Assembly (NCBI GenBank): GCA_916610825.1
Contig: OU744451.1
Coordinates: 10,228,989-10,292,988, forward strand
Reading direction: 5' to 3'
Length of the DNA stretch: 64,000 nucleotides
Source of the DNA: Haliclystus octoradiatus
Taxonomy: Eukaryota > Cnidaria > Staurozoa > Stauromedusae > Haliclystidae
Shown here: in pieces, positions 1 to 62,500 of the stretch
How the letters are laid out: each line of letters opens with the position of its first letter
Numbering within the stretch: position 1 is the stretch's first letter
The notes under the pieces: generated by a model
What the model was told of the DNA's origin: nothing
Seen by the model: the letters and a program-made list of their open reading frames with translations, nothing else
Database searches by the model: none
Position numbers and translations under genes: made by a program

Positions 1-3000
1 CAGGCAGTTAAATCATCAAAATTGTAAAAGCAGCTAATAAAATTTAAATCTACATCCAATCGCCTAACGCAAAGAGTCCAACATAAACATCAAACCTAAA
101 ATTAATTTATATCAAATCAGCATTGCATTGACATCTTGGCTAAAACACAATAATCTGTTTGGTACCTCCTACTACCAGGCAGTTTAATCATCAAAATTGT
201 AAAAGCAGCTAGTAAAAATTTAAATCTACATACAATCGCCTAACTCAAACAGTCCAACATAAACATCAAATCTAAAATTAATTTATATAAAATCAGCATT
301 GCACTAACATCTTGGCTAAAACACAATAATCTGTTTGGTACCTCCTACTACCAGGCAGTTAAATCATCAAAATTGTAAAAGCAGCTAATAAAATTTAAAT
401 CTTCATCCAATCGCCTAACTCAAACAGTCCAACATAAACATCAAATCTAAAATTAATTTATATAAAATCAGCATTGCACTAACATCTTGGCTAAAACACA
501 ATAATCTGTTTGGTACCTCCTACTACCAGGCAGTTAAATCATCAAAATTGTGAAAGCAGCTAGTAAAATTTAAATCTACATCCAATCGCCTAACGCAAAC
601 AGTCCAACATAAACATCAAACCTAAAATTAATTTATATAAAATCAGCATTGCATTAACATATTGGCTAAAACACAATAATCTGTTTGGTACCTCCTACTA
701 CCAGGCAGTTAAATCATCAAAATTGTAAAAGCAGCTAATAAAATTTAAATCTTCATCCAATCGCCTAACTCAAACAGTCCAACATAAACATCAAATCTAA
801 AATTAATTTATATAAAATCAGCATTGCACTAACATCTTGGCTAAAACACAATAATCTGTTTGGTACCTCCTACTACCAGGCAGTTAAATCATCAAAATTG
901 TGAAAGCAGCTAGTAAAATTTAAATCTACATCCAATCGCCTAACGCAAACAGTCCAACATAAACATCAAACCTAAAATTAATTTATATAAAATCAGCATT
1001 GCACTAACATCTTGGCTAAAACACAATAATCTGTTTGGTACCTCCTACTACCAGGCAGTTAAATCATCAAAATTGTGAAAGCAGCTAGTAAATTTAAATC
1101 TACATCCATTCGCCTAACGCAAAGAGTCCAACATAAACATCAAATCTAAAATTAATTTATATAAAATCAGCATTGCACTAACATCTTGGCTAAAACACAA
1201 TAATCTGTTTGGTACCTCCTACTACCAGGCAGTTAAATCATCAAAATTGTGAAAGCAGCTAGTAAATTTAAATCTACATCCATTCGCCTAACGCAAAGAG
1301 TCCAACATAAACATCAAATCTAAAATTAATTTATATAAAATCAGCATTGCACTTGCATCTTGGCTAAAACACAATAATCTGTTTGGTACCTCCTACTACC
1401 AGGCAGTTGAATCATCAAAATTGTAAAAGCAGCTAGTAAAATTTAAATCTACATACAATCGCCTAACTCAAACAGTCCAACATAAACATCAAATCTAAAA
1501 TTAATTTATATAAAATCAGCATTGCACTAACATCTTGGCTAAAACACAATAATCTGTTTGGTACCTCCTACTACCAGGCAGTTAAATCATCAAAATTGTA
1601 AAAGCAGCTAATAAAATATAAATCTTCATCTAATCGCCTAACGCAAACAGTCCAACATAAACATCACACCTAAAATTAATTTATATAAAATCAGCATTGC
1701 ATTAACATCTTGGCTAAAACACAATAATCTGTTTGGTACATTCTACTACCAGGCAGTTAAATCATCAAAATTGTGAAAGCAGCTAGTAAAATTTAAATCT
1801 ACATCCAATCGCCTAACGCAAACAGTCCAACATAAACATCAAACCTAAAATTAATTTATATCAAATCAGCATTGCATTAACATCTTGGCTAAAACACAAT
1901 AATCTGTTTGGTACCTCCTACTACCAGGCAGTTAAATCATCAAAATTGTAAAAGCAGCTAGTAAAATTTAAATCTACATCCAATCGCCTAACTCAAACAG
2001 TCCAACATCAACATCAAATCTAAAATTAATTTATATAAAATCAGCATTGCACTAACATCTTGGCTAAAACACAATAATCTGTTTGGTACCTCCTACTACC
2101 AGGCAGTTAAATCATCAAAATTGTAAAAGCAGCTAGTAAAATTTAAATCTACATACAATCGCCTAACTCAAACAGTCCAACATAAACATCAAACGTAAAA
2201 TTAATTTATATCAAATCAGCATTGCATTAACATCTTGGCTAAAACACAATAATCTGTTTGGTACCTCCTACTACCAGGCAGTTAAATCATCAAAATTGTA
2301 AAAGCAGCTAGTAAAATTTAAATCTATCTCCAATCGCCTAACTCAAACAGTCCAACATAAACATCAAATCTAAAATTAATTTATATAAAATCAGCATTGC
2401 ACTAACATCTTGGCTAAAACACAATAATCTGTTTGGTACCTCCTACTACCAGGCAGTTAAATCATCAAAATTGTAAAAGCAGCTAATAAAATTTAAATCT
2501 TCATCCAATCGCCTAACGCAAACAGTCCAACATAAATACCAAATCTAAAATTAATTTATATAAAATCAGCATTGCACTAACATCTTGGCTAAAACACAAT
2601 AATCTGTTTGGTACATTCTACTACCAGGCAGTTAAATCATCAAAATTGTAAAAGCAGCTAGTAAAATTTTAATCTACATACAATCGCCTAACTCAAACAG
2701 TCCAACATAAACATCAAACGTAAAATTAATTTATATCAAATCAGCATTGCATTAACATCTTGGCTAAAACACAATAATCTGTTTGGTACCAACTACTACC
2801 AGGTAGTTAAATCATCAATATTGTAAAAGCAGGTAGTAAAATTTAAATCTACATCCAATCGCCTAACTCAAACAGTCCAACATAAACATCAAATCTAAAA
2901 TTAATTTATATAAAATCAGCATTGCACTAACATCTTGGCTAAAACACAATAATCTGTTTGGTACCTCCTACTACCAGGCAGTTATATCATCAATATTGTA

Positions 3001-22600: not shown

Positions 22601-25600
22601 ATGTCGAGCCAGGGTCAATAAGAAATTGTATTGGCTTACCTCTAGACCACAGCGTTACATACGCCCTTTTGCCTGGCTTTGTAGAATCTACTGCAAATGA
22701 GCTGTCATCAGTGTCAGAACTGTCAGTGTGCAACGCAGCTGCTTGTGGCCTACGTTTGTTGTCCGATTTTCTGCCTTTTCTTTTGTCAATCCTTTTAGAT
22801 TCTTTTTCAAATGATCTTTTATCTTTGCTACTCTTTGATCTGCATACAATTGCAAAATGATTTTTACGATCACAATTCGTGCAGGTTTTTCCGTAAGCAG
22901 GGCATTGTCCGTATATATGCTGTCTACCGCAGTATTTACAATTGTCAGATGTCATTGCGGCAGCCAAATCTGTCACAATAACTGGTTTTACAGTCTCGAA
23001 TGTAGATATTAGCTTAGTACATTCTGCAATTGTCAGAGTATCTACATTCTGCTGCATGATAAGTCTTTTTGCGTCTGCAGAGTTTAGTCCTCGTATCAGT
23101 AAATCTCGTAATAATAACTCTCCCGTAAGCGTCGCATCCGTGTATCCAGTCTCCTCGTACACAGAACGTAATGACTGTAGAAATTTGTGAATGGGTTGAT
23201 CAGTCCCTTGTTTTAAATCTAATAACTTGCATCTATAACTGAGATGTCTTCTTTGTGGTTTTAACACAGTTTCCAATCCAGACAAAATGTTGTCTACTGT
23301 TTCGGGCGTGTCAGCCGTAAACGTGATATTTGTTTGTGCAAATTTTCTAAAATCTTCACCAGCCACGTTATATAAAATCGCGACTTGCTTTGCTGGAGTT
23401 TTCAGATCTAAATCAGTTGCAACCATGTAAATATTGAACATAGACTTCCAATTTATGAATTTGTCATACGCATTGTGTTGTTTGGGGTTGAAAAATCGGT
23501 AGCTTTCCACGGAATTGTACCATAATCATACACAGTATAATAATACTTAAAAATATATCCTATCAGCTGCGCCAATGTTGAGCTTCGAGTCTCAATCCAA
23601 ATACTGTGTATGATAGATCATAGATAAAGACACAGATAATACAAATGTTTCATAATAACTTTAAGATGTATATTCATATATAATCGCGTGTTCTTCGCAC
23701 CGCATACTTCACATTCTAATTCTAGCATCAATGTCCTACATATTTTAATTAAGAGCTGAGAATCGAAATGAGGCACAACACTATTTAGCCTACCTTTCGT
23801 ATTCAAATTGGCAACCTAGAGGTCTAGGAAAACCATTTTAATCTGATCCGATCCGATCGAATTCGAGTTATATTTTTTTATCGTCCGATCGGATTGAATA
23901 TGTTTTCTTGTTTGGCTAATCAATTTCGGACCGGATTTCTTTGAAAGTATTAGGCCTATTAATTTATTTTACAATTACTCTTTTTTAGTTAATTGATCGA
24001 ATAAAGGGGTGGTGGTGTAAGAATTTTATATAAACAAGGTATCAGTTCAACATCAATATGTTGCAAACACTCTTTCGAATCATTTGAAAATATTGATATG
24101 ACATTTGCTACTAAAAAACGTTTTCGTGTAATTACTATTTATCGTCCTCCAGACACATCATTGCTGAATCTCTTTTTTGATGAGTTTTCTACCCTATTAG
24201 AAGAAGCTAGGCCTACTATTTGTCAAGATGAACTATTAATAATGGGGGATTTCAATCTCCATGTAGATGATCAATCAGATCAAGGCTGTTTGTTTCCATC
24301 TCAATATCAAGAAACCAGCACATATAAAGAAAACAATAAATTCACGCAAATTAGACGACTTTAGCATAACTTGATTTGATGAATTGATTAAATCTTCCCA
24401 TTTATTAGATAATGTGATCTCATCTGATCTCACTTCTCTCTTGTAACGAGATATGATAAAGTACTGGTGGAGACTATGGATATATTAGCACCGATTAAAT
24501 CCAAGACTATTATATTAAGACCTCATGCTCAATGGTTTACTGAACAGAATAGCATACAAAAAAGAATAAGAAGAAAACTGGAACGCAAATGGCGTTGCAC
24601 TAAGTCAGATATAGATAAAGATAACTACTTAGAACAATGTAAGATAACAAATGAAATGCTTTACAAAGCTAAGGAACAATTTTACTCCTCGATAATTTGT
24701 GAAGTAATTTACTACGATTTGATCATTGACTATGCATAGGCCTGTATATTTATTCCTGGGAAATTTTCTTCCCTTTTGAATAGTCAGGTTCGGATTGGTT
24801 TGGATCGTATGGGATTACAAAGTCTGTCTACAAATTTTTTGGAATTTTTTACTGATTATTCTGAGATATATTCTAATATCGGATCGGATCGGATAGGATA
24901 CAAATCGCACATTTTTCAAACACTTTGGATTAGGCCTACCATCTAGTGCCTAATCTGATCTGATGCAGACCTTTAACACAGGTAATGTACACGGTGTCGC
25001 CCTACCGAAGGCACCCATACCACTCCTCTATTTCTAGATGCTTTTTCGCTGAGAGCGATGATTTTAAACGCTCTTTGTTGATCTCAGCCGCGACACTGCA
25101 GATCAATTTTCAACTTCAATTTCGATTTCATGGCAGATAGGTCGTAATTGTCAATGCGCATCGATGCACCGCAGCTACTCGCAATGCAATTCTCTCTGGA
25201 CCATCCCATCCGCCATCCTCAGATGGTACTCATTTGATGTTTCAGATCAGATAAAGTCAAGACTGAGTTGACCTTCGGGGGATTTGAACCACAGTCGATC
25301 AGATGTTATCCGATCTGAAGTTCGATTGCTCTGCCATCTGAGCTAATCCTTCACTACGTTTAGACGTCTGATGCGTGATGGTAAAGCGCTGGGAAAACGA
25401 TAGCAATTTTCAACCAACTTTTCTATTATCTAAAAATCCTTGTCAATTAGTAACTCCTTCAATTTTGCTTGACGCGGCTGGATTGTGTTGTGACTGGACT
25501 GTAAAAATAAAATTAGCTCCAAAACAGGAAAAACACAATTCAGACAAAAACAGATTTGTTACGCAAATGTTGCTAACATTATGTCAGGGCCTAAGTTGTA

Positions 25601-40474: not shown

Positions 40475-43400
40475 CTGATCAAAATAAACAAAAACATATT
40501 ATTATCAGAGCCATTGTTATCGGTATACAATACTAGTGACATATTATCAACAACAACAACAACAACAAATAAACTCATGATGGATTGCATCTGTTTTGTT
40601 GAAAATACGAGTAACATAGACGTAGTAGGGAGTGCCTTATGGTTGAAGCATCTTGTGAAAAACAAAAACTGATGCAAGGGGAAAGAAAAAACTAGATACA
40701 TGTCTTATTGTCCCAGCCGAAGCATTCAGATTTGCTAGTAACACTGACATGATTGTGATATGCAACAGCCCCTGCGAAAAACAGTTTATGAACAGTTCAT
40801 GAATGTTAAATGGCCCCAAATTTTCATGAACTGTTCATGAACTCCTGAACTGCTTTTGGCAGGGGATGACAGTAAGCTTCTATGATTGCTTACAGATTAC
40901 CCATAAAATTGAAGATTCATTTTGGTACACTGCAACCTATTAAATACAATGCAGTGTGAACATGTGATAATATTGTATCATTGCCATTGTTCAGCCAAAA
41001 AGTGATAATGAAGTCCATTGTGATATTACCTAAATTGAAATCCGTAAGTTCGGAAGAAATTGTTTCTGCACATTTATTTATATCAAGAAATTTGTGATAC
41101 TAACAGTAGTGTCTGTTCAACCATTTTTATTTTATTACTTCGAGTAAGTGAATCAAAATATATCTACCTGTAGTTGTCGAATACATTCTGCCATTCTTTC
41201 TTGAATATCTGGTAAATGACTGTGGTATTGATCTATTTCACCACAAAATAGAACAAAGGACAGGCGACGGAGTAATTGTGACCTTTGTTCCAATTCCTGT
41301 AGAAGATCACAAAAACAAAAACAAAGTCAAAAGATAATGTTCTTAGTTCAGCAAACTCAGGGTAACTGAACGAGAGCAATGTTTGCACACATGAACACAT
41401 TTTTAGATAGAAGCTTACTGTTAAAATTTATATTTGTTTAGTTAACTACCCATTGATAACTGATAGTCACCCTGGGCTCCCAACAAAGCGAGGATACTCT
41501 GTCACTGTGCGTGCACAATTACTCGTTGTATGACGTACATCTCTGCGAATGTAGATATTATGTGACAGTAAAAAAGATTACTTTGAATTACAATATTAAA
41601 GTTGATAGACAATTTTATTTATTCATTGCACAGGAAATATGATTATTAAACAAATCCAGTATTTGGGGTTTTGGATTCAATCACAATGCAATTGAGTTTT
41701 GAGTGATCGTTGTTACCATATGTTAAACTGAGATCAAAAAATATTCAGTCACCATAGCCCCCATCGTATAATTCTCTGGTTTAACTATTTAACGGCATTT
41801 AACAGTGTATTGCATTCGATGCAGGATTGCTTGAAGTAATTACCATAGTTGCGGCACAATACGCCCTGGAACTGTACTCAATACCAACAAGTGTAATACA
41901 AAAGCTTGATTTCTAATATAATATCATGAGACTATATTGTATAATGCAGTTGAATTACCTGTTCTTTGTTTGTAAACAAATTGATTGCTCCACTCTGTGA
42001 CACTGATACTCTTGTTATTAAATCCTTAAAAAGTGGTGCTTCAAATGTCATGAGACGATCAATGATAACACGCCATGACTCAAGACAACATTCATCCATA
42101 CCAAAGAAATCTTGTTCTAAGAACAAATCATAGACATCTTTCTTCCACGCTCGTAGGGTATATTGATAATCAGTGATGTCTGCTAACATGGCACTAGCTG
42201 CACGAAAACTGCTGATATTTTGAGGACTAAAAAAACATAAGCGACGTTTTAGATTTCGATTGCATGGTAATGCCTCACAAGATGCAATTCCAAAAAAAAA
42301 AAATATATATATATATAAATGCCATCTATGTCTAATTGAAAAGTATCATATCATTTGCGCAGAAGAAGATCTATTGAATAAAAAGTTTGAACTCATTTCC
42401 AAATGTAGACATGAAAATAAAATTTTATCTAACTAATTATAAATCCGTGAAAACATAACATATACTTTATAATTTACATATGCAGATGATAACTAACCAG
42501 CGACAACAGGAAATAATAACAATGCAATTTATTTCTAGTATCAAAAGCCTTTGTTCTGTTAAACAATAACTGTAGGTTTGTAAATCGATATAGGCGGAAC
42601 TGTATGTTTTTCATTATTTAGTTTATTTGTCTGATGATTGCGTAAGCATGAAACTATTAGTAACAATTATGAATGTGTAGTCTTTGACTCCTTTTATTAT
42701 ATTTAGCTCTGTCAAATGATATCGAGCACTATTTTTTGCTATTAGATAATATCTAATATATATATATAACAAATAAGTTCATGAATGTGAAATAGGCCAG
42801 TTTTCAGGTTTCATGAATGTGAAATAGGCCAGTTTTCAGGTTTCATAAATGTGAAATAGGCCAGTTTTCAGGTTTCATGAATGTGAAATAGGCCAGTTTT
42901 CAGGTTTCATGAATGTGAAATAGGCCAATTTTCAGGTTTCATGAATGTGAAATAGGCCAGTTTTCAGGTTTCACTGTATATGCATACCTGTGGTTCTTCA
43001 GATATGGTACTACATTGTACATGACATAAACTAATAAAGCTGCCACTTTGTCTTTCTCTTCACTCAAGTACAACAGATCAAGCATGGGAGCAAGCATCTA
43101 CATAAAGCAATATAAAGAAAAATAATAAAGACAAAAAGGACTCCAATATTTAATAGTTATTGATTGAAGGCAAGTTGAATATCAGCTGATAATTACCGAC
43201 GTCAGCCAAGGTCATTATCAGCCGATTTTCATCGAGCTTGGGATCAATAACTGTTTTAGTCAATGATTAACAGGTCAATTTTGGAACAAATAATCATAAC
43301 ATGGATTTAACTGTATTTTAATGCATCAAAAACGCAAGTATTCGTAATTGCGTCTTTTCTGCATAATGGTTAGAAACACAGAACAGTCAACAAAGTTTAG

Positions 43401-46400
43401 AATTGACTGCTTTTCGACAAATCAAATAGCTCGATTTTTGTACTGACCTGTTGGTCAATGACTGAATATATATATATATATATATATATAATTTCAAACA
43501 TCATTTGAGTAGTTCAAATGTGTTAATTGCAGCAGGTATAACCTGGAACGGTCAGTTGTTTGAAAAAAGTTTATAATAACTTATCAGGTTCTGAATAAAT
43601 GATGATCGTGAATTGATAATGATGATGATGATCATCATGATCACGATGAGTACTGCCGTAGTAAATTACCTCAGCTAGGGTACAAAGAGCCTGTACACTA
43701 AATTGTGAGTTCTTTACTGGGAGATTTGCTGTGACGGGGGGCATAGGGGGAGCTTCAGGAGGGGTAGCCTCTTCTGTCTTTGGATCATCTACTTTCCAAG
43801 GATTATCAATATCATATTTCGCCAAGTCTTTATTCACAACAGTCAAATTCCGACGGAACCATGCTGAGCTTTCAAGAGATGCACCAGCAACACCATTGCA
43901 GAAATCAATCAACTTCTGAGCCAGATCCTGTTGAGTAAAATTTGAAAGGGATTGAGTTGTTTTAATTGAATTTGTAATCAAATTAATATACTAATGATAA
44001 ATAAAAATCGGTGGAAACAGGAAATGTACACGTTACAGATTATAAGATAAGCTTGTTGGCCAAATTTTGATTAAAGTCTCTAGTAATAGCCCCTGCGCAA
44101 CATTATATATATTTTTGTGATAATGGGATATAAAGCCCTTTTAATATCAGACTGATCGCAACTACATGGTAAGGGTAACTGAAGGACACTCTCTCTACAC
44201 TAGATGACAGTGTATCCATTCAACCACATGTTTCCCTCGTTGCCTTGTCAATTGGCAACTCATTAGGTTCTGATCATGCTAGATCAAGTTACACCTGTTG
44301 AATACAAATGCAAGATAAATACAAATATTTGACATGAACATTTGAATAAATGAAAGGCAGCTTGGTCAGTTAAGGGCAATGTTGCATTACATATCATTAC
44401 AATCAGAGTCAGACAAGAGGTCAAGTCTTCTGGAATCCTACAGGTATTTCAACATCTTCTTCTGGATTGTTTTGTTGATGTTTGACCTATATATCATGAA
44501 AATATCATTTTTCTTCTGATTTTGCTCTAACCTTCTGGAATCCAGGATTCCTACTTTTGTCGGACCCTGATTAAAACTGGTGATGAAGTTATTGTTGTTA
44601 CCTGTAGTTCCTTTCTTGCCCTTCTCTCGTCTGGCACAGGCACTTTCTGTACAAACAAACTCATTATAGCCATCAGAACAAATTGAGCAGGTGGTAGAAG
44701 ATTCAGAGTGAGGCCATCGCGGAAAAGAGATAGCAAAGCTAACTTCACTTGAATAACTTTATCAAGATCAGCTCTTTGAATTAACTCATACATTAACTGT
44801 AGCAAGTTGACTTCTAATGTTTGACGGACAGCATTTGCTTTGTCAGTGGTATTTATTATCCCATTCGTACTTGTGACACCATGCTTGAGGATTTGCCGAG
44901 TAGTATCAACAAGGGATTCGAGACTCAATGCCTAAATGATAAATAGGTGTTAGCACTTTAGTAACATTGCCCAGGTTACATATTTACGTAATACAAGAAC
45001 TTTTCTCATTGAAAAACAAAATAGAAGATTCTAGCATATGATTTAATTATTTGAGTTTTGAGATGCAGTAACAGTGATTTAAGCTGGATTCATGCTAGCC
45101 CAATATTGCGTAATTATCAGAATTCAGAATGGGAAATGTCATACCCAACAGAAGCTTAAAATTTGGTTAATGTAACCACAATGTGACGTGTCACATGAAA
45201 AATATTTTTATACTGAAATATTCCGCTTGTGATATTTGATAAATCATACTCATCAAATTCTACATGAGTAAAAGAGTATAGTAATAGGTATAATTATAAT
45301 TATAACTACTGTATTAGCAGCAGACAAACTGTACTTGTTTCTGGCCATTACAGTTCATCAGTACTGATCAGTGTATTAAAATTATAATTCTCTCTTAACA
45401 TAGATTACCATAGGAGTATATAGGAGTATCATAGTATCGTTATCATTATACAGCCATAAGAGCCATTATACCACACAAGGATTATCAACAAATTATGGTA
45501 AGAACTGTTCAGACCACGCGGTTTTGGCTGGATATTGACGTCACAGTGGTGTCCCGCCAAATATGTCAATTTTTCCCGCGTGATTTGTTGATGATTTTTA
45601 ATTATTAATTACACGCTCACTTCTTGATATTTTAAAAAAATTTCTTGGATACATTACTTTTAAAAATACTTGAACCGATTTATGAAGAGAAAGATCGGAA
45701 ATATTGCTTTGGTGAGAATCCCCTATTATAGTTATAACTACTGTATTAGTAGCATACAAGTACTTGTTTCTGGCCATTAGCCTTCATCAGTACTGCTCAG
45801 TGCACTGAAATTATTATAACTACTGTATTAAAATTACAATTCTCTATTAATATAGATTTCAAACGAATCAAACACTTCCAGTTATTGTATTCAAAAATAG
45901 ATCCATACCAACCTTTATTGATGTGATTATATTCAATAATGATAATTGCTCTTCGTTAACAACGGGGGTCGTCTTTCGGTTCATTACAGTTAACCATTCC
46001 TTTGTAGTTTGATTAACAGTCGGATTGGTTTTACTTTGTGTAGCTGATTCTTTAGCTTTTGTTTGGCACCAGACATCTGCTGATGCAGCGAGGAAAATGA
46101 TGGTATGGTTCATAGCAATTGGGGTAAGTAATTGCAACACAGACTGGTTGACATCCTAAACAATAAAAAACATACAATTTTCTCTAACAATTCACAATAT
46201 TAGCATTGGATGCAGCAGCAATGTCAGCATAAATAAAGTCTGGAATTCAAATCATGATCAATACAGCATTGTCAACAAGTGAATAAGAGACTATGAAACT
46301 AAGCATGGTGATTGCATAGAGTGTGGCGTCATACAAGTGGGCATCAAAAACATTATAATACAATAACATTTTAGCAAACGGTACTTTTTTAATAATGCTA

Positions 46401-49400
46401 TATCTGAATGTTTAAGTGAGAGATGCTGCAGTGAAACATGAAATTCAGCATTATGGATTCCTGTCGTTTTTGAAATTGTAAAACTATTAACATTGATATC
46501 ATCGCTGCACAACGAAGACCATTACCTTTGAAGCACCAATCTCTAGAGATGGAAATGGTAGAGATGATTTGGCAGACGAAGATAAAGAATTAGCCTCTGT
46601 CTTATGCCATACACTCCATACTTGAACAAGAGAGAAAAGAATACCTGGAAGAGCACTAAGTACGCTTTCTCTTGCGTCAATCAACGGCTTGTCAACTGTA
46701 AACAAAACATTAAAATGAAATTATTCTTCAAGTTTACATAACAAACAATATCCCATCAATATACCTAATATCAACTTTATCATGAACAAAATGCATCTCC
46801 TCAGTTATACTCAAGGCATCTACCAATACATTATTGTTGGATGTAATTAGTTATAAGGAGGTTGTCACCAACTATACACTATTTATCACTAGAAATCACT
46901 ATGTAAATACTATAGTAACTCTACGATCCACACAGGTGGGACTTTTTAACATTCGATATATATAAACTGTAACAATCTGTGACCCTATGAAGATATTGAC
47001 AGTTATATAACAATGTACTATCACTAACCCTCTTCTGTTGTTTGCTGTTTGAGTGGTGCACCTTGTGCTGAAAACACATGGACCAGATTTGAGAATATTT
47101 GTAATGAGCTGGTTGACGATGCGCTATCGTCAGCATTTTGTTGCTTTCCTTTTGAACGTGGTTTTGGTGCCATAATAGCAGCGGCAGTGGATGAATCAAC
47201 AACACAGAAATGAGACATGTTGGTGATATCTTCAAGCATTGTCAACATATGATCAACAGGGGTATCAGCAATACTAAACGAACAAATTAATATGTGACAA
47301 TGAGATATCAATTACATTATGTCAATATATTGTTGTGTTTGATTTGATCCTTTCTATCAGTAATGACTCTTTCAAGCTGCTGAGTTGAAATGGACCAAGT
47401 TAAAAGTACCTAAGATTTTACAAATCCTCTGTTGGCAAGAAATAACACAAATAATTGTTTTAGCTAGTATACATGCCCAGAATTCGACACCTGGTGCAAT
47501 TGGATGTCTTTTAAATTATAGCCTGCGTGCAGACTAAAACCTATCTTAGCGAAAGTGTAAGTTTATGTAAGTGTAAGTGTAAGTTTAAAAGTTTACACTT
47601 TCGCCAAGATAAGTTTTAGTCTGCACGCAGGCTATTAAACTAGGCAAGATGCATAAAAATACAATTGAAAGTATAATTTCCTTTTTTGTACAAAACAGGA
47701 AGAAAATAGGAAAATCAAAGCCTATCAGGAGCACAACTAAAAACAGAAATGATAATTATCTATTAATAATTATTATACTGTAATAATGTACTATATCAAT
47801 TTACTATATCACTAAACCATCTTGCATATGAAATGACTTAGATAACTCTAGAAAACTGGACGTTATACACAACCCACCGAGATTAGACAAAAATTTATCA
47901 ACAAACTTGAAAAATATAAATTGGACAAAATTAAAAGGAGTTGATCCATACCTGTCAATAGTATATTGTTTTGTAATGCCAGCATACATATTAGAAATTA
48001 TTCTCAAGTTCAGAGAAAGCTGCTCAATTACTGGAACAACTAACTTTGGTAGAGCATTGCCTAAACTAGCCAAACTAGAGATAATCAGATTATTCCAATC
48101 ATGGTGTAACAGCATCCATGTTTTCTCTTTCAACGCACTGAGACAAACAGCAATTAACATTGGTTGAGCTGCAAGACGTTCATTTGAAACATAGTCCCAC
48201 TGAATATGTTCACTTGATGATGAGGATTTGACATTCTTCTTGAAACGTGGTTTATTTTTAACATGTGACTCAACCGTATCATGATCAATATCAACCACAC
48301 CGACACAATGTTCCAATGCAATCAGACTTCGAACAAGACCAAGTAAAGATTTTTGCAGGTCAAAACGCATTTGATCATTTCGATTAAGCATTGAAGAATT
48401 AACATTTAACTGATTGAAATTGTTAGCACCTGCAAGACCACCTTCCAATGTATACACAGTAGATAATAAACAATGTAGGGCAATGCGTTGTACTTTACAA
48501 CGACGGAATAAATCAGCAACAAATGATCCAAATCCGCTACCATTATCATTAGCAATATCAAGTACTTCCCAAACAATAGTTGTTAGAAGTTCAATTGTAG
48601 CTGTTACAACAGCAAAGTTACCATCAACATCATCCTTATTTGTACGTAAAACAGTATGATATTCAGATCTAATATAATGAAGTGATATTGAAATAAGTAC
48701 TTCAATGTATTTCGCAGTACTTGCACGGACAAGAAGTTGATGACCTAAAAATACAATAATTGTCTGTTAATTTAATAGCAAATCAAGGATAGTGGGGAGA
48801 GAACGAGTATCGCTGCACTTGTACTACAATTGCCTTAATAACACAGTGAAACCTGTAAATAACAGCTGGCTATGAGAGATCTATAAACTGACTTCTATAT
48901 ACATGTGAACTTTATATACGGATTTACCTGTAGATGGGAATTAAGAAAATTAAAATTGTAGAAAATGCTGGTACATTTACATTCAAAGCTGCTATATAGC
49001 CGACACCTCTTTTAAGCAGAAACATGTCTAGTCTATCATAGTCACTGTAATAATGTTTTACTTAACTGTAGCATAATTCAATGCAACAATTGTTTCATTG
49101 CAACAACCGTGTATATAGACCACATGCATATAGTGATCAATGTATCAACATCCTAAAGATGACTATTTTATGCATGTTTCAATGTGAATCATGGTTCTAC
49201 AGTAGAACTTGCTTAATATCCCCCCTCTGGTACGGATAAAAAGCGGGACATTAAGCGGGGTGGGATATTAAGTGAGGTAAGAATATGAGAGCTTGTATGG
49301 AGAATTGAAAAAGAAAATCAGTTTTAAGTGAGGATATTAAGCAAGGTGGGACATTAAAACAGGGGATATTAACCGAGTTTAACTGTATTCTACTAAAATA

Positions 49401-52400
49401 GAGAAATGAATATTTCATAAACACCTTTCTATTGAAGCTGTGACAAGAAACAACAATATAAAATAAAGGACACTTACTGTCAGCTAAGGAGCCATAGAAC
49501 TCTTTAGCTGTCAATGCACGGCGATGACGTATCAAAAGCTCTCGTAATGCATGCTGATGTGGTGTGTTACACATGCTCATACTAGCAGTTGTGGCTGAAC
49601 ATAAAAAGGCTCTACCATTAACAGTTAACATATTCCGCAATGTTTTTAAAGAGTACAAAACTTGTTCTGTGTCATATGGTTGAGTGTAATAGAGTTTGTG
49701 AACTATCAAAGGATGGGGTGTTTGTTTACGCATGATACGGTTTGGATGAACTGGACCTAAAAGACAAAATATTAAAAAGTCAATCAGATAACAAAACAGG
49801 CAAGCAAAGTGTAACTTCCAAATATTATCATACTAATTATGTGTGTTAGAAGTCAGATGGAATGGATTATCATACTAATTATGTGTGTTATAAGTCAGAT
49901 GGAATGGATATCATACAAATTAGGTGTGTTATAAGTCAGATGGAATGGATTATCATACTAATTAGGTGTGTTATAAGTCAGATGGAATGGATTATCATTA
50001 CAAATTAGGTATGTTATAAGTCAGATGGAATGGATTATCATACTAATTAGGTGTGTTATAAGTCAGATGGAATGGATTATCATACTAATTAGGTGTGTTA
50101 TAAGTCAGATGGAATGGATTATCATAATAATTGGGTGTGTTATAAGTCAGATGGAATGGATTATCATACTAATCAGGCGTGTTATAAGTAAGATGGAATG
50201 GGTAATCATCAGGATGAGACCATTGATTTTGCAAATAACAAACAACAACATTATTGAGGGTCAGCATTAATTCATAGGCAAACTTGATTACAGTAGAGCC
50301 TTTTCTAGTGTTTCATCAATCAAGTAACTCTCATTGAACGTATGAGTATAACATGCAGTATAACAATCATTGATATACTTGGAAATTGTTTAGAAACAGA
50401 ATTCAATTAAAATTAATAAGGATTCGATGAGGATTCAGATTACAACATTCTTATTGTACAGCCTCCTGTGTAGCAATTGCGCCGAAGTCGACAACGGAAG
50501 AGGTTATACATTTGTAGATAAACAGTCATGACCACGTTGTAGCATGTGGTTTATCCTATGAACAAGGCTTTTGAGAAACTAGTTGAAACCTCAGAAATGA
50601 TCCATGTTGACTATGAACTAATATTAATCATTATCCAGGAATTGCTGCAATCACATAATTATTATGAATTGAAAATGAAAAATGTACGATTTGAATGCTG
50701 TAAACTGTGGTCATTGTTACTGTGCAAATAACACCCATATTCACAGGTTTAAATTTGGATCAATTTCAGTAAATGTTCTTTACCATTTTGCTTTGAATCT
50801 TGAGATCCAGGCTGAGGTGTTGGTGATTCAACATCTAGATTATCAATGTCTTGTTCATCACCAGGTTCTTCAATTTCTGTTTCACTACTATGTTGATCGC
50901 CATCTGGAGATTTCATGCCACGATATTCAACATCAATATTCTCATTTATAACATCACTGCTTGACCCCAGCCGTTTATCTAATAAGAATATAAAGCATTG
51001 AAACATGACCTACATAATGATTTCAATCCAAATGTTAATCATAATGCAACTATTTAATAATTCAATGTGACTAAAAACACTGCATTATACTACATACGCA
51101 TGTTTTCATTAGCTATTTTCATGATATGCTGGGTAAATTGGTTATCAGTGTTGTATGTGATCAGGTGAACACTATTTTACTAATAACGGGTAAAAATTGA
51201 AACAAATTACGAATACAACTGCACGGCATTCATTTATTAACATGCAGTCAGTCGCAATAATTATTATGGTTTTCTTTGACTATTTACTTAGTTATAGTAG
51301 ACAGATTGTGATCAAACTTTCAATTATACTTTCTATCTGCTGAATTATAAGAACTGAAACATTGGATTCAAGGTTGGATATCTGCATTTGACATCATAGC
51401 TGTTAACCAATCAGATTACAAAGATCCTTTTTCTAAAATGAAGTGGCTACAGTAGCATTCAAATGAACAGAAGTTATGCGGAAACAATTTTAAAGTTCAT
51501 CAAACCATCCCTCTGAAGTCAATCCTTTGAAACAATTTAGAGGGGTATGTTAATGCCTACACCCCAAGCTGATAGGGTCAAATCCCTCTCCTATCCTTAT
51601 AAGACAATAGTTCACATCTCTGTTTACCATTCTGATTGATTTGCTCTTTCAGTTTCTGTCCATCCAATTCATCATCAAATGATTCAATGTCATCTTCAGA
51701 AGGTTCTGCATTTAATGGCTTACGCTCTGATGTCATTTCCCCGCTACTTAGCATAGAACTCTCAAGCCAGTAATCTGCATAATGAACAGATACTCTCGCA
51801 CTTGAAGGTTTTAATAGAATGAGTAACAATGGCTCAAGAAGTCTACCAATATCACCAAAATGATTGGAATGAAGTAGCCAATTCTTAGCCAACATCCTTT
51901 TAGAAGGAAGAAAATCAATTTAAATTAATACAGTCAATACAGCTATTTACAAATTGAGTACTTGTTGTATCAGTAAGTATGAAATTTGTATACATTGTTT
52001 GGGGCAGTTACTTGAATGATAAGGACTGGACAAAGGGTTATACAGAGTCTGTAAACCAGGGCATAGGGTTTGCACAAGCCTAGGGAAATTCATAAGTTGA
52101 ATGAAAAATATAGGATATTTTAAATTTATACAACTTGAATTTAAAGACTTGTAGAAAAAGTTGAGGTTCCCATAAAAAATTCTTGGTAGGTCCCTGACTG
52201 GATGATTTCCCTTTCGAAAACCAGTTCTGGAGTTCATAAACAGTTCATGAACCCTCACATACAGTTCATGAACAGTTGATGAATGTTAAAGGGCCAAAAA
52301 TTTTTATCAACTGTCCGTGAACTGTTCATGAACTGTCAATGAGGGTTCATGAAAATCGGTGTTATTCAACGTTCATGAACTCCTGAACTGTTTTCCACAG

Positions 52401-53137
52401 AGGTTATGATGCAGATTCAAATAGAACTAAAACAACCAACAAAAATCACTGATTTTCAACTGATAATATTGTCTGGTGCTTAAATATCCTGAAATTTCAC
52501 ACCCTGAATAGTGTCAATTATTTTATAATCAACATAATCCAACTATTATGATTGATTGGGTACAATTAAGGATTACTCAAAACATTACATATATATACAG
52601 TGCTAGAAATCAATTAGTTACCTAATGCTGGGAAGAACTGATTCAAGGCTGTCCATACACAAAAGCATGCAACTGAAATAGAGTAGAAGCAATCAAATAT
52701 AAAATGTCTCTTATCAACCCAATTATTATAAACTGGATCTGAATCACAAAGATAGATTCAAATACAAATGAGGAAAGAGAATTTCATCTTAGAATCTTAG
52801 ATCATTCCAAACAATTCAAAATGGCAGTAAAACCTGAATAGAACAGGCAGTCATGGCATCAAGAGATCCAAATTGATCATTACAGACACATGGTTTTTAT
52901 ATAATCGTCTGATTTAGTAGAACATTTCTTTTTGAAAATTACCAACTTGACCGCTACTGACAGGTGATTGTGATAGAGATGGTATTTATAACAGGTTTAA
53001 CAGCATTTTTAAAATCCATCCCAGAGTTACTTAATCAATTGAGTAGAATTGAACTGCACATATTTTCTTTGATGAGGCAACACTACTGACACCAAAAGTG
53101 AGATTTTATTGCTTGTTCATGGCATTTTCACAGCATT

Positions 53138-53208
<71 letters not shown>

Positions 53209-56200
53209 ATCTCATTATCATCATGGACGGACGGAAATTATTTTACTCCCCTGACCTATTTTGATATGATAGCTACAATGAATTTATAATATCTCAATTG
53301 CTGAATAAAGTTTATTAGATTTGAAAAGAGTTATTATAGTACATTGTATCTTGTATTGATGATACCAAAAGCGACGCAATAAAACCGTATGGCTGTAAAG
53401 TCAGGCAGGAGCCTTAAAGTTTTGAATGAATTTGAGAATACGAAACTCGATTCAAGCACATGTATAACTACATCCATCAAAGCTAGCTATAGAAACGACA
53501 TATTACATACTGCAAGATTCAACACTACAGATGTTAAAATATGGAAAGAAGCGACAATCAATTATTTCAATGATATCAACATTTTATCAACTAGAAAGCC
53601 AACAAAACTAGAAGACAAGACAGTACTTTCCTTCTTCGCCCCTAAATCAACTCATGGTAAACAAAAGAAATTATTAACAATTAACTTTTTCAGTACAGGG
53701 ACAATTATGTGCTCAGGTGAGGAATTAGAAAGTTTTATAGATCAACATTTTTTAAAAATTAATGACTCAATAACTACTGAGAAGCCCCAGGAAAATCTAC
53801 AGAATGATAAGAAAGGCGTATTTAAACAAGTAACTGGCGCTTTGAGTATGCAAAACAACAGCGACACTGAAACGGAAATTGACGAAGGAAGTCAGGGCGT
53901 ATTGACCGACAACAGTTCATCACCATCAGAAATGACATTAGGATGTCCCGGACCATCAGACAAAGTGATTAGTACGAATGATGACAATTACAAACTTATT
54001 TTAGAGCCCTCGAATAATTCCACTTTTGACACAATTATATTAGATAGCGCAGGTGAACACGAACAATTAAGCCCCAATATTATGTTAAAACGAGGTGAAA
54101 GCCTTGGTCATGCCAATCAATCGACAACAGTCCCTGAACGAAAACAAATTATTGGTATTTCAAAAATTACAGACAAAAAATCAATCGTAGTTGCCGACAC
54201 AGATCCGATATCACCTAATGAAGATCTGTGGAGGGCATTACGCAACCTGCAAATTCATGTTTACAATCTCGAGGAAGAGAACTCGGTGTTGAAAGCTAAA
54301 GTTGACTCAATTGAAAAACGATTATCTAGCTCAGCTAACGCGGTTAAAGTAGCAAGAGATAATATACCCAACAATACCATAATTGAAAATAGAAACAGCA
54401 AAACAATTCGACAGTCGAAAGGGGAACATTCTCGCACCCAAACAGAAACACAAGATCTGTTGATTATTGGAGATTCCCATCTTCGACACATCAACCCAAA
54501 ACGTATTTCAAAATCGGCCGACGCTAAAAAAATAGTATGTCAAGGAATGGCCACCCACAAATTTATTTCAGAAATCGAAGACATAGGTAAGACAAAAGAT
54601 CAATACAAACACATTATCCTACACATCGGATCAAATGACATACACTCACAACACCTAGACGTCTCATTGACAGACCATAAAAGAGTAATCGAAACCGCTA
54701 AAAAACTGTTTCCACATGCTAAGCTGCATCTGTCATCAGTATTACCTAAAACAGATAACCAGAAGACAAATGAGGCGATTGAAGTATTTAACAATGAGAT
54801 GGAAACTTTCTGCAGAGGAACAAACATTAATTACATCAATCACACAAAAACATTCACGATTGTCAAAGACGGACAATCTAAACTCAACCCTAAGTTATAT
54901 CTTCCAGATAAAACCTATACGAACGAACATGGCACAAAACTCCTTGCCACAAATTTTATCAGAAATTTTCACAAAATAGAAACAACTACTTCAGAGCTAA
55001 AAGAATTTCAAACATTTACTAACACAAACAGCTCTAATAAATCAGTAATGTATCAAACAACAGTTCAAACACAACAAACGAATCCTCCTTTATTGACCAA
55101 TAAGCCCGTGAATACAAACAACGATGTAACAGAAAATATCCAAATCCAAGAGGAGCGCAAAAATAAAGATGAAAGAAATATGTATAACACACCATACAAC
55201 GGAGGTAGAGATATGACGTACAATACCGGTAATATCAACATACAACAAAATCATCCGCAACAAAATCAATACCACTTACAACCACAAATGAGACCTATCC
55301 ACGCAAATCACAACCAGCAAAATCAACAAATAGGCACTAACATGTCAGTAGGCCCTGGCATGCCATCTGCATACTCACAGCCCCCCAAAAATCCCCCTCC
55401 GTTACTTGGGCCATATCAAAATCATAATACAAGAGAAATGATGCCACCGTATGGAGGTATTAACCTACCCCACTATAACAACTTTGCACCCCCCCTAATG
55501 ACCATGCCTCTCAATCAGCAATATTATATACCAATGAGCACACAAAAACAATGGAATGACACGCTCTTTTACCCACAAAATCAAATGCATAGATGTTATT
55601 AACTACACCATGGCACTACCAATGAAAATATTAAAAAGAATGGAGTACTATTGCGTCCAAGCAGATAAGTACTGTACTAATACACTACTAATTATATTAC
55701 ATAAATCAATAGCAGCCTATTATAGTCTACATTTTATTATCGATTTTAGCACTAGTCTATACATTCCAATTGAATACAATTTCTACTTAGCATATATATA
55801 TGTAGCAATAATTAAATGTTGCCACAGAAAATGCACTCTTTTCAATATGGAATCCCAAATTTTTTTTATTCCCAAACCAATATGATTACAAAATCAAAAA
55901 ATCTTAACATTACATTTTGGAATGTCAACGGATTAGGATCCAAGTTTGAGAACCCTGATTTTTTAAATATTTTTCAAAATGAAATAATTTTCCTTTGTGA
56001 AACATGGTTGAATAATAACAAAACATATGATATTCCACTTAAAAACCAATATACTGCTAATTTCAAAAATAGATCTAAAAAATCCAAAAATAATCTTCGA
56101 AATTCAGGAGGAATAATAACTTTAATTAAACATGATATCAAGTGCGGTATCACTGAAATACAATCAGAGTCAGATGACATTGTCTGGCTTAAACTTAATA

Positions 56201-59200
56201 AAACATTCTTTGCATTTGAAAATGACTTATATATAGGTTTTTTGTACATCAGCCCCCACGTTTCATCTGTGGACGCTATTCATAAGTCCCATGTTTTTGA
56301 TATTCTCCAACGTGAACTTATAAACATCCCATGCGATTGTGACGTGGTTCTTGGGGGTGACTTTAACGCGCGAATAGGCAACGCCCAAGATTTTATCGAA
56401 AATGACGAAGATATTTTTTTCGATTTACCATCATCATACGAGCTAGATTTTGATATTGTTTCTAGAAAATCACGAGACGACACTCGGAATGAATATTGCA
56501 GACATTTGATTGATATATGTACAAGTAACCAGCTGAGAATTCTAAATGGTAGACTGAAAGGAGATGAAAATGGAGAAATGACCTTTTGTAACGCTAAAGG
56601 ATCGAGCGTGGTAGATTTTGTACTGGCATCTGAAAAATTATATCTGAATGACCAGCATATCCTCAAATCACTTTCTGTTGACCAAGAAGGTTTAATCTAT
56701 TCTGATCATTGTGCACTGCATCTCAGTTTAACTTTTGACAGTATCATACCAAAGAATACAGTTAATCCTGATATCTTTACTAATACCAGGCCGTCTCGCT
56801 ATATTTGGTCGCATGATAGAGTATCAGAGTATAGTGCAAAATTTGACCAACTAAAAGTTAGACAGACCCTTCAAGAACTTGAATCGAATATTATCGAAAA
56901 CGAAGACGACCTCAATAACTTCATAACTACTATAACTGATACATTAACTTTCTCGTGTGATGGCATTTTCAGGCTAAAATCATTCAGCAAACAGATTTCC
57001 AAAAGGCAACCCAAAGCAAATTGGTATACAAAAACATGTTCAGGAATAAAATCCCAGCTAAACAACATTATTCGGTTATTGAAAGTCAATCCAAGCAACC
57101 CTTACCTACGCGGACGTCTCTTCAAAATGCGTAAAGCTTACAAAACCGAGATAAAAAAATCGAAGCAAACTTACAAGGCAACAGTTTTAAATGAAATTAA
57201 TAATGCTATGTATACCAACAGAAGTAGATTTTGGGAACTTATAAATAATAATCTGAAAACACAATCGTCAAACGAAAAAATGCCAAACCCTGAAGATTTA
57301 CTTCTGCATTTTAAAAAATTACACGAAGATACTCTAACCGTCGATGATTCAACTAGTGAAGCATCAATGCCATTACGAGTACCATCATCACCAAGCCTTC
57401 TCGATTTTCACGACAGTTCAAATTTAAATCTACCCATAACGGAAGATGAAATTCTGACGTCTTTAAAACTTTTGAAAATTCGAAAATCTCCAGGAACTGA
57501 TGGTGTCCTATCAGAGATGATTCATTGTACGATTGATAAATTTCTAAAAATATACAAAAAACTTTTCAACAACATTTTACAATGCGGTATTTTCCCTCTG
57601 GCTTGGAAAGAATCTATGATCTTACCAATTCACAAATCTGGTGACTTACTCGACCCTTCTAATTATAGAGGAATAAGCTTAACAAGTATCCTTGGTAAAC
57701 TTTTCTGTATCGTTCTTAACGAAAGACTAAACAATTTTTTGGAAACAAACAAATTAATTCACCCAACCCAAGGAGGTTTCCAAAAAAATCGCCGAACAAC
57801 CGACCATTTATTCTGCTTAAAAACAATCGTTGCAAAATATACAAAAAACCATCAAAAGCTATATGCCTGCTTCATTGACCTAAAAAAAGCGTTTGATTCT
57901 GTTTGCCAAAAGAGGCTCCTACAAAAACTAGAGCAACTCAATATCACTGGCAAGTTTTATGACATGATCAAAGTTTGTACTCTGACAATTCTGCATTCAT
58001 TATCCATAACAAAAGGCTAACCAAAGCAATCACACCAAACATTGGAGTAAGGCAAGGTTGCATACTTAGCCCAAATCTCTTTAATATCTTTGTAAATGAC
58101 CTTGCCAAAACCATCACATGTAATTCCTCTGATCCTATTATCTTGCTAGATCAACCATTAAACTGTCTGATGTTTGCAGACGACATTGTTCTTTTTTCTT
58201 CCACCCCACAAGGGCTTCAAAACTGTATTAATATAACTTCCCAATATTGTTCCAAATGGAAACTAAATGTCAACCACGACAAGTCAAAATGTATCGTGTT
58301 TTCCAAATTACAACCATCGGGACCTTCGCACAATTTTTATATAGACGGGAAACAACTTACTTACACTGATAGTTATAAATATCTTGGATTCACATTCCAT
58401 AGATCATGCAAGCAGATTTTTGGTATAAAAGAGTTATGTAAAAAAGGTGAAAAGGCCTGGAACATGAGCAGGCGCTCGTTGAAGGGATCCCCCACGAACT
58501 ACGTTGCTATCCATCATACGCTATATAATACCGTTGTTAAACCAATTCTCCTCTATGCTTCCGACATTTGGGGAGACACTATAACTAGTGAAGAGAACAA
58601 CATACTGGAAGCACTGCAAAGAAAAATCATGCGCCAAATGCTGAGCGTAAAGGGAAATACGAACACCCTAGCAGTAAGAGGAGATCTAGGCATTGCACCA
58701 CTGCAGATAGACATTAAAGTCACTGTATTGAAGTACTTGCTACGACTGATCAACTCCGATCGAAGCACGATTATATATAAATCCTTTTCTGAGCAAATGC
58801 TCGATAACTCGCCAACATCTTGGCTAGGAAAAGCTAAATCCTTTCTGTCAGAAGTCAACATAGACCTTTCATTATTACTATCCAAAGATACTGCTAGTAA
58901 ATGGAGTAAAAAAAAATTAATCAATACAATCAAAGAAGAGCTAATTGATAAATATTCTGAAAAATTTAAAAACTTAATCACTAACAGCCTAAACAGATCC
59001 AATCAATTAAATTTTTATGCAAATATTTATGAAAATTTTGAATTTCAAAGTTACCTACTAATACCAAATGCCTCCGCTAGGCGTGCAATAACTAAACTAC
59101 GAACTAGTGCACATAAACTCGGGGTTCAGACTGGTAGATACTTTGACATTCCATACCCAGAACGAACATGTAAATTTTGTGATGAAAACTATATTGACGA

Positions 59201-59545
59201 TGAAGTGCACCTTCTGTTTCAATGCATTGATAATACCGATCTACGCGATCAATTTTTCAAAATAGCTGAAGAAGTATATACAAACTTCAGACAGATTGAC
59301 ACCAAAGAACAGTTAAAGGTTTTGTTTACCAAAGCATCATCCCAAATCACAAGAAGACTTGGGATATTTATCTCGAAGTCATTAAAAAAGCGACTTTCTG
59401 AAAGTCAAGTTGATGATATTATCTAGCCTGTAGTCATGTAAATAATTTAATTGAATATGTATAAATAAGACTACATCTTACAAACCTGTCACACATCCTG
59501 TATTTATTTTGGATATATTGACAATAAATGAAACAAACAAACAAA

Positions 59546-59587
<42 letters not shown>

Positions 59588-62500
59588 TCATTCAGAAAAC
59601 CTTTAAGTTTACATCAAACTTTTTTTCAAAGGACTGATTAGGCTATACACTACAACATACATATATAGCAGGAAATAAAACATTAACAAAAGATAAGAGG
59701 TAAATTTTAGTATTTACAAAATAAAAAATAGAGAGCTAAATAAAGTTTTATCATTCTATCATATGGTTCTTGAGGAGACATTTGAAACCGGTCCATTTTG
59801 AGACTTTCTTCATTGCAGATGGCAGATCACTCCATTTGTGAGCACCAGCATATTGATATGAATGGCGATGGCTTGACTGGATGTAGATGTCATTGTGGGA
59901 ATGGGATCGAATGCTGGTGGTATTTGGACGTTTGAAAAGATTGGAGAGCAGAGGAGGAGCAAGATTAAATATAATTTATGGGTGATCATTAATTGGTGCA
60001 AAGTTATTCTGTCTCTGATTGAGAGCCAACCAAGTCGACTACGCATCTCAGAGACAGGAGTGCGATAGTCACAATGAAAAACTGCTCTCATCCCTCTGTT
60101 TTGTAATCTCTGGAGGAGATAAAGATGTTGCTGTTCCCCATACGACAGCACAGTAATCAAAATGAGGCAAAACAATTGAATTATAAACTATAAAACTAAT
60201 GAGGCTGTGTGTTGGGGTATATAACGTTGAATGTATTTCAATACACCGATGCCTGATCAATTTTCACACCTAGATATTTTAAAAGGGTTATATTATCAAT
60301 ATAGTCATTATCACAGTTATATTAAAGTTTTGTGAGCTTTGCTTTTTAAATGACATTTGTGATACTGTAAAGAATTTTAAAATAAATCTTTATGCTGATG
60401 ACACTCTTTCATACGTTGCCAATAAAGATATAACAGAAATTGAAAAACACATGATTTAAATAATATTAGATATTATCTAATAGCATAAAATAGTGCTCGA
60501 TGTCATTTGACAGAGCTAAATATAATAAAAGGAGTCAAAGACTACACATTCATAATTGTTACTAATAGTTTCATGCCTACGCAATCATCAGACAAATAAA
60601 CCAAAACAATCTTTCGAAAGCCTGAAACTATTAGTAACAATTATGAATGTGTAGTATTTGACTCATTTTATGATATGATTTAAATAACATATATATTTGG
60701 CTGTGTTCAAATAAATTGAGTTTAAATGCATCTAAAACAAGCTGTATGGCCATATGTACTAAACCAAATCTAATATAAATTAAAAAGAGAAGCTGCCCAA
60801 GGATTGACCCTTGGGGAACACAATGTTTAATTACACTTATATCTGAATTTTTATTATTTACATTAACTATTTGCTTCCTACCTATTAAACAAGATTTAAA
60901 AAAGTTTATAGTATTTACATCGTTTTCATATAATTTAAGTTTATCTAGAAGTATATAAATATCTACAGTATCAAAGGCCTTTTTTAATTCTATGTTGACT
61001 ACACCTACATATGGATGTTTTCATGTTTTTAAAACTTTTTCATGGCTTAAAAATTGTAGTTTTCACTTTTTTACATTTTGATGGTGTTTTCATTTGAACA
61101 CTTTCATGGCATTTTCATGATTTTTATGCTGGTAGTGTAATATGTAATCTGAACGGTATGGATCATCTGCATTACATTCAATAAATGTCTACACGTTCCA
61201 ACAATATTTGATTAAAGAAATTTCATCAAATATAAAGTTTGTAGCCAATGAAATTCAAATCAAATTCATACACTTGGAATAATGTTATCATAATTCACCT
61301 GTCTAGTGTCCGTAATACTCTTTGACAACGATTTGAGTCATTTTTATAAAACTCTCTTGATAGATGCCATAATACACTAAACCTCCAATGTGCTATCTTT
61401 GAAACATCCTAACAGATATGATGAAAAGGAAATATGAGATTGAAAGATAACATGAGAAAATAGATCTCTCTTCCTCAGTAAACAGTGAGATCTGAATTCA
61501 GCTTCATGCCTTCATTTTGACATGTGATGTTATATCTAGTTTGTGTTCTCTGTTCATCACTTAGGTGTTAGGATTGCTCCAACATATAGGCAGATCAATC
61601 ATATCTATTATTTCCACGTCACTCATACACAGGGTCAGGCAAAAGTAGGAATCCTGGAGTCCTAGATTTCAGACGGTTAGAGCAAATTCAGTAGAAAATT
61701 GATATTTTTTATGATTCATTGAATGAAAACAATTAGCTTCCTACTCAAAATATTGATGAGTATATTATTTAGATTATATTATATTTTCTTTGCTGGGTAT
61801 GATGGTGATGTATAGGCCTACAGAGATTGCAACAGAATTGAAAATTATCAAAAATATGCTGTCAACTTTTGCTTAGAAATGATTAGGCAAACTATTAAAA
61901 ATAAATACAGATATAGATCATATAGATGTAAGTCAAACTATGTCACAATGTGGCAATCACATTGACAAAGAATTATAGAAAACGGCTAATGATTGCAATC
62001 AAAACATGAAAAGTTGTAGGCTACAAATCAAATCTTTGAAGCATGTTATGAATATTATCTGTGAGGTAAGGTCCAATAAAATATTTTTTCTTGCGGGATT
62101 CCGATTTTTCTTCCAAACTTTCTTTGTTGAATTCATCATGTAAATGTTTTTACATCCTTTTATTATAGGGCTCTTGTCATAAACATACGATAGAAACTGA
62201 ACAATTCTACTTCTCTGTCCAAGAAAATAGAGAAAATTATTTTCTTCTGATAAAAAAAGAATACAAGTTCTATTTCTTTCCCTTCCTTCTGTATTTGTGT
62301 TAGCCTTCCAGGACTCTCATTACCAGAATGCTCCAGTTTGTCAAACCCTGCTGTGAGGTAAACAAAGTTTGCTTGCAAAATTTGAAGCACTTTAGTAAAA
62401 CTTGTTTCAACTCTGTTTCATATACAATCAAGCTAGGTTAATACCCCCCTTTTTAATTTCCCACCTTACTTAATATCCCTACATAACTCACATAATATAC

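Follow-up and report, generated by a model that had tools for sequence, protein, structure and literature searches.

We describe two hammerhead motifs in a 64,000-nucleotide stretch of the genome of the staurozoan Haliclystus octoradiatus (contig OU744451.1, positions 10,228,989 to 10,292,988 of the forward strand; hereafter the window). Both are almost certainly ribozymes of the pseudo-long terminal repeat (pLTR) of a Penelope-like element (PLE), brought by two separate insertions into introns of the gene DOP1. The established observations are the motif sequence, its covariation, the linkage to a PLE frame, the positions at which insertions end, the pairing of their tails and some target duplications.

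Two hammerhead motifs and their genomic relatives

The first motif (copy 1; 42623–42670, plus strand) begins its CTGATGA at 42631, and the second (copy 2; 60552–60599, minus strand) at 60591. Each has an intact core, consisting of CUGAUGA, stem-loop II, GAAA, a two-pair stem III and UA, and agrees with the general formula CUGANGA...GAA with A15.1-U16.1 and H17 other than G. Cleavage is predicted at 42662|42663 and at 60560|60559. In both copies, stem I has four continuous pairs (UUGU/ACAA), stem II reads U-UGC-loop-GCA-U, and stem III is formed by A-U, C-G and U-A around a loop of 3 nt. In copy 1, stem-loop II occupies 42638–42649 (plus strand; supported by sequence and by covariation over families) and the mini stem III, which opens with A15.1-U16.1 and carries the loop AUU, occupies 42653–42661 (plus strand, read from the sequence). 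The predicted cleavage site (42662–42663, plus strand, A as H17) follows from core geometry, and a cluster of 5' ends of other insertions falls at the same place. The earlier note on this DNA had placed both cores, with cuts at 42663 and 60559 and complementary stem I arms, and the sequence bears this out. It had also stressed that the copies agree in every core base. This is correct but weak evidence: the copies are 97.2% identical to each other over 143 bp, so the agreement mostly reflects shared recent ancestry rather than constraint.

Unlike the mere agreement of two copies, the genome as a whole places the motif beyond chance, through thousands of matches and through covariation. In the window, the strict pattern CTGATGA-N4-24-GAAACT-NNN-AGT-H occurs at two places, the two motifs themselves. 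Across the assembly (261.9 Mb, 33 contigs), it has 3866 matches (1915+1951), compared with 2+0 for a reversed control; a looser pattern, CTGATGA-N6-30-GAAA, has 7928+8931 matches, compared with 1233+1242 when reversed. Stem II takes several forms in which pairing is kept: TTGC..GCAT, TCGCC..GGCGT, TCACC..GGTGT, ACGC..GCGT and TCGC..GCGA were all seen among the 100 matches listed. For an alignment, 43 distinct motif sequences from the sampled loci were reduced by similarity to 25. The hammerhead structure pairs 77.1% of cells in these 25 copies, compared with 27–43% (maximum 43.2%) for slid versions of the structure. Cells with double changes number 32, compared with 17.5 ± 3.2 after shuffling, and the covariation score is 0.251, compared with 0.176; neither value is reached in any of 500 shuffles. 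Stems I and II each have four pairs with changes on both sides. Stem III is invariant in these rows since the strict pattern fixes it, and the core is likewise both invariant and demanded by the search pattern. A covariance model (R1) built from the 25 copies finds copy 1 with 61.9 bits (E 3.7e-16) and copy 2 with 58.1 bits (E 5.3e-15); copy 1 (locus L012) is among the rows of the model, so its score is partly by construction.

We considered whether the motif arose by chance within a repeat that is not a ribozyme, its hammerhead look being kept by recent copying. The near identity of the window copies (97%) would fit this explanation, and several results weigh against a ribozyme. In the window, Rfam reports no hammerhead at E ≤ 10 or at its gathering score; the best it gives in seven sister loci is HH9, with 22.8 bits against a cut-off of 52. 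The minimum free energy structures of isolated 50–69 nt RNAs differ from the hammerhead fold, and these RNAs are not unusually stable relative to shuffled sequences (four z-scores, −0.02 to 0.86). Two of the five covariation measures are often reached by shuffles (double-change pairs in 168/500, further pair types in 377/500). Finally, pair 10.1-11.1, normally G-C, is non-standard in 19 of the 25 aligned copies, the others being three A-U and three U-A, and in both window copies the canonical G10.1-C11.1 is replaced by U.U. Opposed to this explanation are the thousands of matches in many families, whose stem I and stem II sequences differ and still pair, and we regard it as very improbable. 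The earlier note would have counted a missing model match together with missing covariation as a refutation. That combination was not observed: Rfam gives no match, but the genome copies show covariation.

The U.U pair, which the earlier note took as a possible sign of low activity or of a variant class, does not by itself define a new class. Natural stem II helices starting with U10.1-U11.1 have been published, and no other mispair there supports as much cleavage (Perreault et al., 2011; PMC3088659).

Three further observations concern hammerhead-like sequences. Further hammerhead families in the genome are suggested by some matches to the looser pattern that are missing from the strict listing and start stem II with G-C (for example C1:449666 and C1:2257031). 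In small IMG/VR contigs of 4.4–6.9 kb, CTGATGA-stem-GAAA motifs precede GGAGG-like sites and ATG starts by a few dozen bases (L001:981, L001:4048, L002:981, L002:3368 and L003:27-59(-)); judged by eye, the flanks of those at 981 agree with a type III hammerhead, and in these motifs too stem II starts with U.U. Weak Rfam matches near the motif (13.7–15.1 bits), which would point to a small nucleolar RNA, were dismissed as chance.

Linkage to a Penelope-like element

Copy 1 belongs to the 5'-truncated 3' end of a PLE (42317–42768, plus strand), a 452-bp unit whose genome copies match over the whole length or nearly so with 91–98% identity. Longer copies of the same family (H1) extend upstream into a PLE frame. 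In locus L072 this frame ends 177 nt before the motif. Where protein matches reach the C-terminus, the distance from their end to the motif is 188–198 nt in 16 distinct H1 pairs, window copy 1 included; the exceptions are L055 (309 nt) and the H1 motif of L026 (425 nt). The window itself retains a C-terminal remnant of the frame at 42317–42433 (plus strand; L012:1218-1334), which tblastn aligns with residues 666–705 of homologue P0031 at 57.5% identity (E 5.9e-8).

The PLE frame has 3808 homologues, for many of which a precomputed PF26215 assignment is entered. When the predicted model of one homologue (pLDDT 88) was used in fold searches, telomerases topped the lists; the linked frame is thus predicted to encode a telomerase-like reverse transcriptase. 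Searches of the frame and its homologues with Pfam and NCBIfam gave nothing above cut-off, and a sequence search of the PDB gave nothing relevant. One expectation is unsupported, and this counts against the assignment: no Pfam or NCBIfam profile confirms a GIY-YIG endonuclease domain. There is also no GIY-YIG chain in the 50 rows listed of either fold list, in which the reverse transcriptase fills the rows and the C-terminal part is barely probed. The frame does contain a putative YIG...R...H motif. Several other traits of PLEs are present, namely 5' truncation, inverted head-to-head copies, a tail and target duplications.

A second alternative is that the copies are non-autonomous retrozymes, small SINE-like (short interspersed element) units with circular RNA, rather than PLE ends. 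Many short copies do consist of ribozyme and tail only, and the U.U pair together with the two-pair stem III recalls the HHR_Amex2 ribozyme of axolotl retrozymes (PMC7229834). That system, however, forms tandem repeats of about 350 bp and closes helix III with a tetraloop, whereas the motifs described here sit at PLE ends and have a triloop. In long copies of the family, window copy 1 among them, the PLE frame lies upstream at a nearly uniform distance from the motif. In 69 loci of 3–7 kb, a small, selected sample of the genome, a single same-strand pair of strict matches lies 100–600 bp apart, and it joins two families; no tandem arrays were seen. We therefore judge retrozymes improbable.

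The earlier note had compared the motif with type I hammerheads of PLEs and retrozymes in which stem III is tiny. A type I-like hammerhead tied to PLEs is supported by the PLE match 188–198 nt upstream in most H1 copies with a C-terminal match, and by the covariation of stems I and II. Hammerheads in PLEs are reportedly known from Cervera and de la Pena (2014) and Lunse et al. (2017), as cited in reviews. Like those of PLEs and Terminons, the hammerhead described here is a minimal type I-like form in the PLE pLTR with thousands of dispersed copies. PLE and Terminon hammerheads are described as usually lacking helix III (PMC7761336, PMC6155905). In contrast, helix III is present in the 3866 matches found here, with two pairs and a 3-nt loop, as the search pattern demands; the frequent non-standard first pair of stem II is another difference.

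DOP1 lies on the minus strand, where one TPR_DOP1 and two DOP1_C matches were found, so copy 1 is antisense and copy 2 sense to the gene. Copy 1 is flanked by DOP1-matching segments. The position at 60.5 kb is likely still inside DOP1, a placement that depends on a frame to which no Pfam family matches.

Copy 2 is a double insertion, its two arms lying head to head. The main arm (60463–60605, minus strand), which has a long tail, is 97.2% identical to 42617–42759; its 5' edge lies 46 nt before the cut. The inverted partner arm (60612–60676, plus strand), with a short tail, is 90.8% identical to 42638–42702 and contains just the 3' half of the hammerhead, giving a partial covariance match of 13.5 bits. 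The double insertion is flanked by a 13-bp target duplication, ATGATTTAAATAA, at 60451–60463 on one side, where the element border is ambiguous by a few bases, and at 60675–60687 on the other (read from the sequence). Both window copies are fossils, and in copy 2 the inverted arm would pair with the element's own ribozyme and disturb it.

Copy 1 also shows where the landmarks of the element lie, all on the plus strand. The counterpart of the main 5' end of other insertions, 46–48 nt before the cut, is at 42615–42617, and copy 1 continues further upstream. The short-tail end (S) is at 42701–42705, the inverted partners mostly stopping at the corresponding L012 positions 1602–1606. The long-tail end (L) is at 42768, adjoining (TA)n.

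Insertion ends, paired arms and a possible record of cleavage

The positions at which insertions begin were mapped from an anchor sequence lying 6 nt past the predicted cut; in this way, copies that stop at the cut itself were retained. The first H1 sample comprised 79 anchors in 60 loci, these being merged places among the 100 listed of 507; L019, L024 and L026, long copies already included as 3-kb loci, were omitted, which gives a slight bias to short copies. The second used a variant anchor and comprised 70 anchors in 60 loci, merged places among the 100 listed of 101, with a few places that were already included omitted. From these 149 anchors, 15 were dropped as belonging to a sister family by the six bases before the anchor (11/79 and 4/70) and three as duplicates, leaving 131 copies.

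Two clusters of ends stand out in the first sample, the main one 46–48 nt before the cut and the other at the cut itself. Over all 131 copies, with positions counted in nt upstream of the cut, 47 begin at 46–48, within 66 at 40..50. Fifteen begin at −2..+1, nine of them exactly at the cut (0). The other ends fall at 2..12 (17 copies), 28..38 (10), 53–54 (three) and beyond 54 (20), with none at 13..27. Relative to a uniform spread over −5..12, a null chosen post hoc, the enrichment at exactly 0 has a binomial p of 0.013 in the first sample, 0.001 in the second and 4e-5 in all copies.

The sister family (T), which has other stems (TCGC...GCGA), was sampled at 40 and then 20 places among the 100 listed of 302; some neighbours were omitted and the rows were not deduplicated. 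Among its first 52 anchors, four are exactly at 0, representing three insertions, and 22 are at 44–48. Counted by insertion, three of five short ends are exact (p 0.0013), the two arms of L203 being one insertion and L236 and L237 looking like duplicates. A third family has four exact anchor matches with each anchor, too few for an end test. H1 and the sister family share the sequence TTTTTCATT, and in both the main end coincides with the end of this sequence or differs from it by no more than about 3 nt, which looks like a transcription start.

Strict matches tend to occur as inverted neighbours. Among the first 100 listed, 22 pairs of neighbouring matches are less than 1 kb apart, and 16 of these are −/+, three +/−, two ++ and one −−. 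A head-to-head pair is found in 59 of 122 stretches, that is 120 loci and the two in the window. After omission of nine loci (duplicates or sister family), of a second pairing in L077 and of L148 (weak arm), 49 pairs were analyzed. In 45 of them the arms fall into two end classes, −2..12 and 35..54; 41 of these pairs have both arms in one class (PP 30, CC 11), and the four mixed pairs (CP) compare with 18.5 expected. The remaining 4/49 lie outside both classes. Of 44 pairs with readable tails, 40 have one long tail and one that is not long, four have two long tails and none lacks both. Here a tail is called short when the long-tail motif is absent from the next 60 nt. In longer loci, 19 pairs comprise 16 with mixed tails, two long+long and one short+short. 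Flanks share at least 9 bp in 14 of these 19 pairs, compared with 137 of 363 mismatched flanks, many of the shared stretches being (TA)n or (AAT)n. Target duplications that are clear and outside simple repeats are those of the window copy (13 bp), L038 (16 bp) and L041 (15 bp).

These arrangements resemble those of two known systems. Penelope elements of Adineta vaga also have inverted pLTRs, mostly head to head, with a tail on one of them and target duplications of 8–10 bp (PMC3846280); no hammerhead was met in the available part of that paper, in which no aimed search for one was made. The tail asymmetry was counted here, and such near-fixed pairing of a long with a short tail was not found in that part, unlike head-to-head copies, tails and target duplications. 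In PAc, the Poseidon element of Anolis carolinensis, a hammerhead likewise lies near the start of reverse transcription and there are two start sites and tails (PMC11167929). The anole protein starts copying at two adjacent internal sites, and both target strands are extended, as we propose here. In PAc the frame begins inside the ribozyme; here the two tail ends are about 39–43 and 106 nt beyond the cut, and the cut is itself the end of some insertions.

The simplest account of the two end classes is that templates end at the RNA's own 5' end or, less often, at the ribozyme cut. We infer a transcription start, cleavage in vivo and priming on two sides, as follows. The element RNA would start about 47 nt before the cut site, which would place the ribozyme at its 5' end and, in longer RNAs, also after the coding frame. 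On each nicked target strand, reverse transcription would be primed at either of two sites shortly past the ribozyme, giving a long or a short tail. Both complementary DNAs (cDNAs) would reach the 5' end of the RNA and be joined head to head, producing a short insertion with a flanking target duplication. The ribozyme may cleave some of the RNA ahead of copying, so that a minority of cDNAs would end exactly at the cut. We put forward tentatively, at somewhat below even confidence, that PLE hammerheads cut in the living animal and that the cut RNA serves as template. The genome would then record uncut (about 47 nt upstream) and cut 5' ends at about 5:1 (47 vs 9). In each insertion, long-tail priming on one target strand would be paired with short-tail priming on the other, both strands using one kind of template.

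For the joining step, an alternative is that the cDNA snaps back and primes itself instead of being primed on both target strands. Snap-back has been proposed for rotifer PLEs (PMC3846280), and arms that share a 5' end class would fit it. A plain copy of one arm, however, would not give arms that differ in their tails, as they do in 40/44 pairs, and the anole PLE protein cuts and extends both strands (PMC11167929). We consider snap-back rather unlikely.

For cleavage in vivo, the insertion ends are a hint, not a proof. A serious rival, to which we give close to an even chance, is that ends at the cut are stops of the reverse transcriptase at the folded ribozyme, or chance, and that the ribozyme is inactive in vivo. 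Stops near stem III evidently occur, as 17/131 ends are scattered over +2..+12. Several results weigh on the same side. Under a rule set after the first sample and before the second, −2..+1 was to exceed every 4-nt window in −6..−3 and +2..+30, failing which the cluster would count as chance; in the second H1 sample it tied with +2..+5, six ends each, and the rule failed. L084, one of the nine exact ends, is ambiguous. The extension of the sister family (22 anchors) has no end at the cut and six at 44–48. Mutating the ribozyme of the anole PLE did not prevent insertion in vitro, where cleavage is thus not needed, and no RNA-seq reads begin or end at the cut (PMC11167929). By contrast, the first sister-family sample satisfies the preset rule, with four ends compared with at most one in other windows. 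Short-class ends peak exactly at 0 and not at +1, the position expected for a stop before stem III, and two families with differing stems share this peak. Both arms end exactly at the cut in L083 and L152 (H1) and in L203 (sister family).

PLE hammerheads, the U.U pair and head-to-head PLE copies are already published; what is new is the map of insertion ends. Ends at the cut used in this way were not found in the literature as judged by titles and the openings of abstracts, which is weak evidence of novelty. In a genome with thousands of copies, insertion ends could reveal ribozyme activity without an RNA sample. That each head-to-head insertion joins a long tail with a short one is a testable rule that bears on PLE integration.

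Other features of the window

The window begins with a satellite array (1–9266) of 53 copies of a 175-bp unit with 96% matches. Long split frames at 15083–19113 (plus strand) and 19632–23525 (minus strand) resemble by eye two Gypsy-type gag-pol elements in opposite orientation. A LINE-like (long interspersed element) element occupies 53383–59426 (plus strand); its first frame has a weak GDSL-lipase-like match below cut-off and a later frame matches RVT_1. Tandem repeats are found at 42778–42973 (32 bp, six copies) and at 49824–50209 (42 bp, nine copies).

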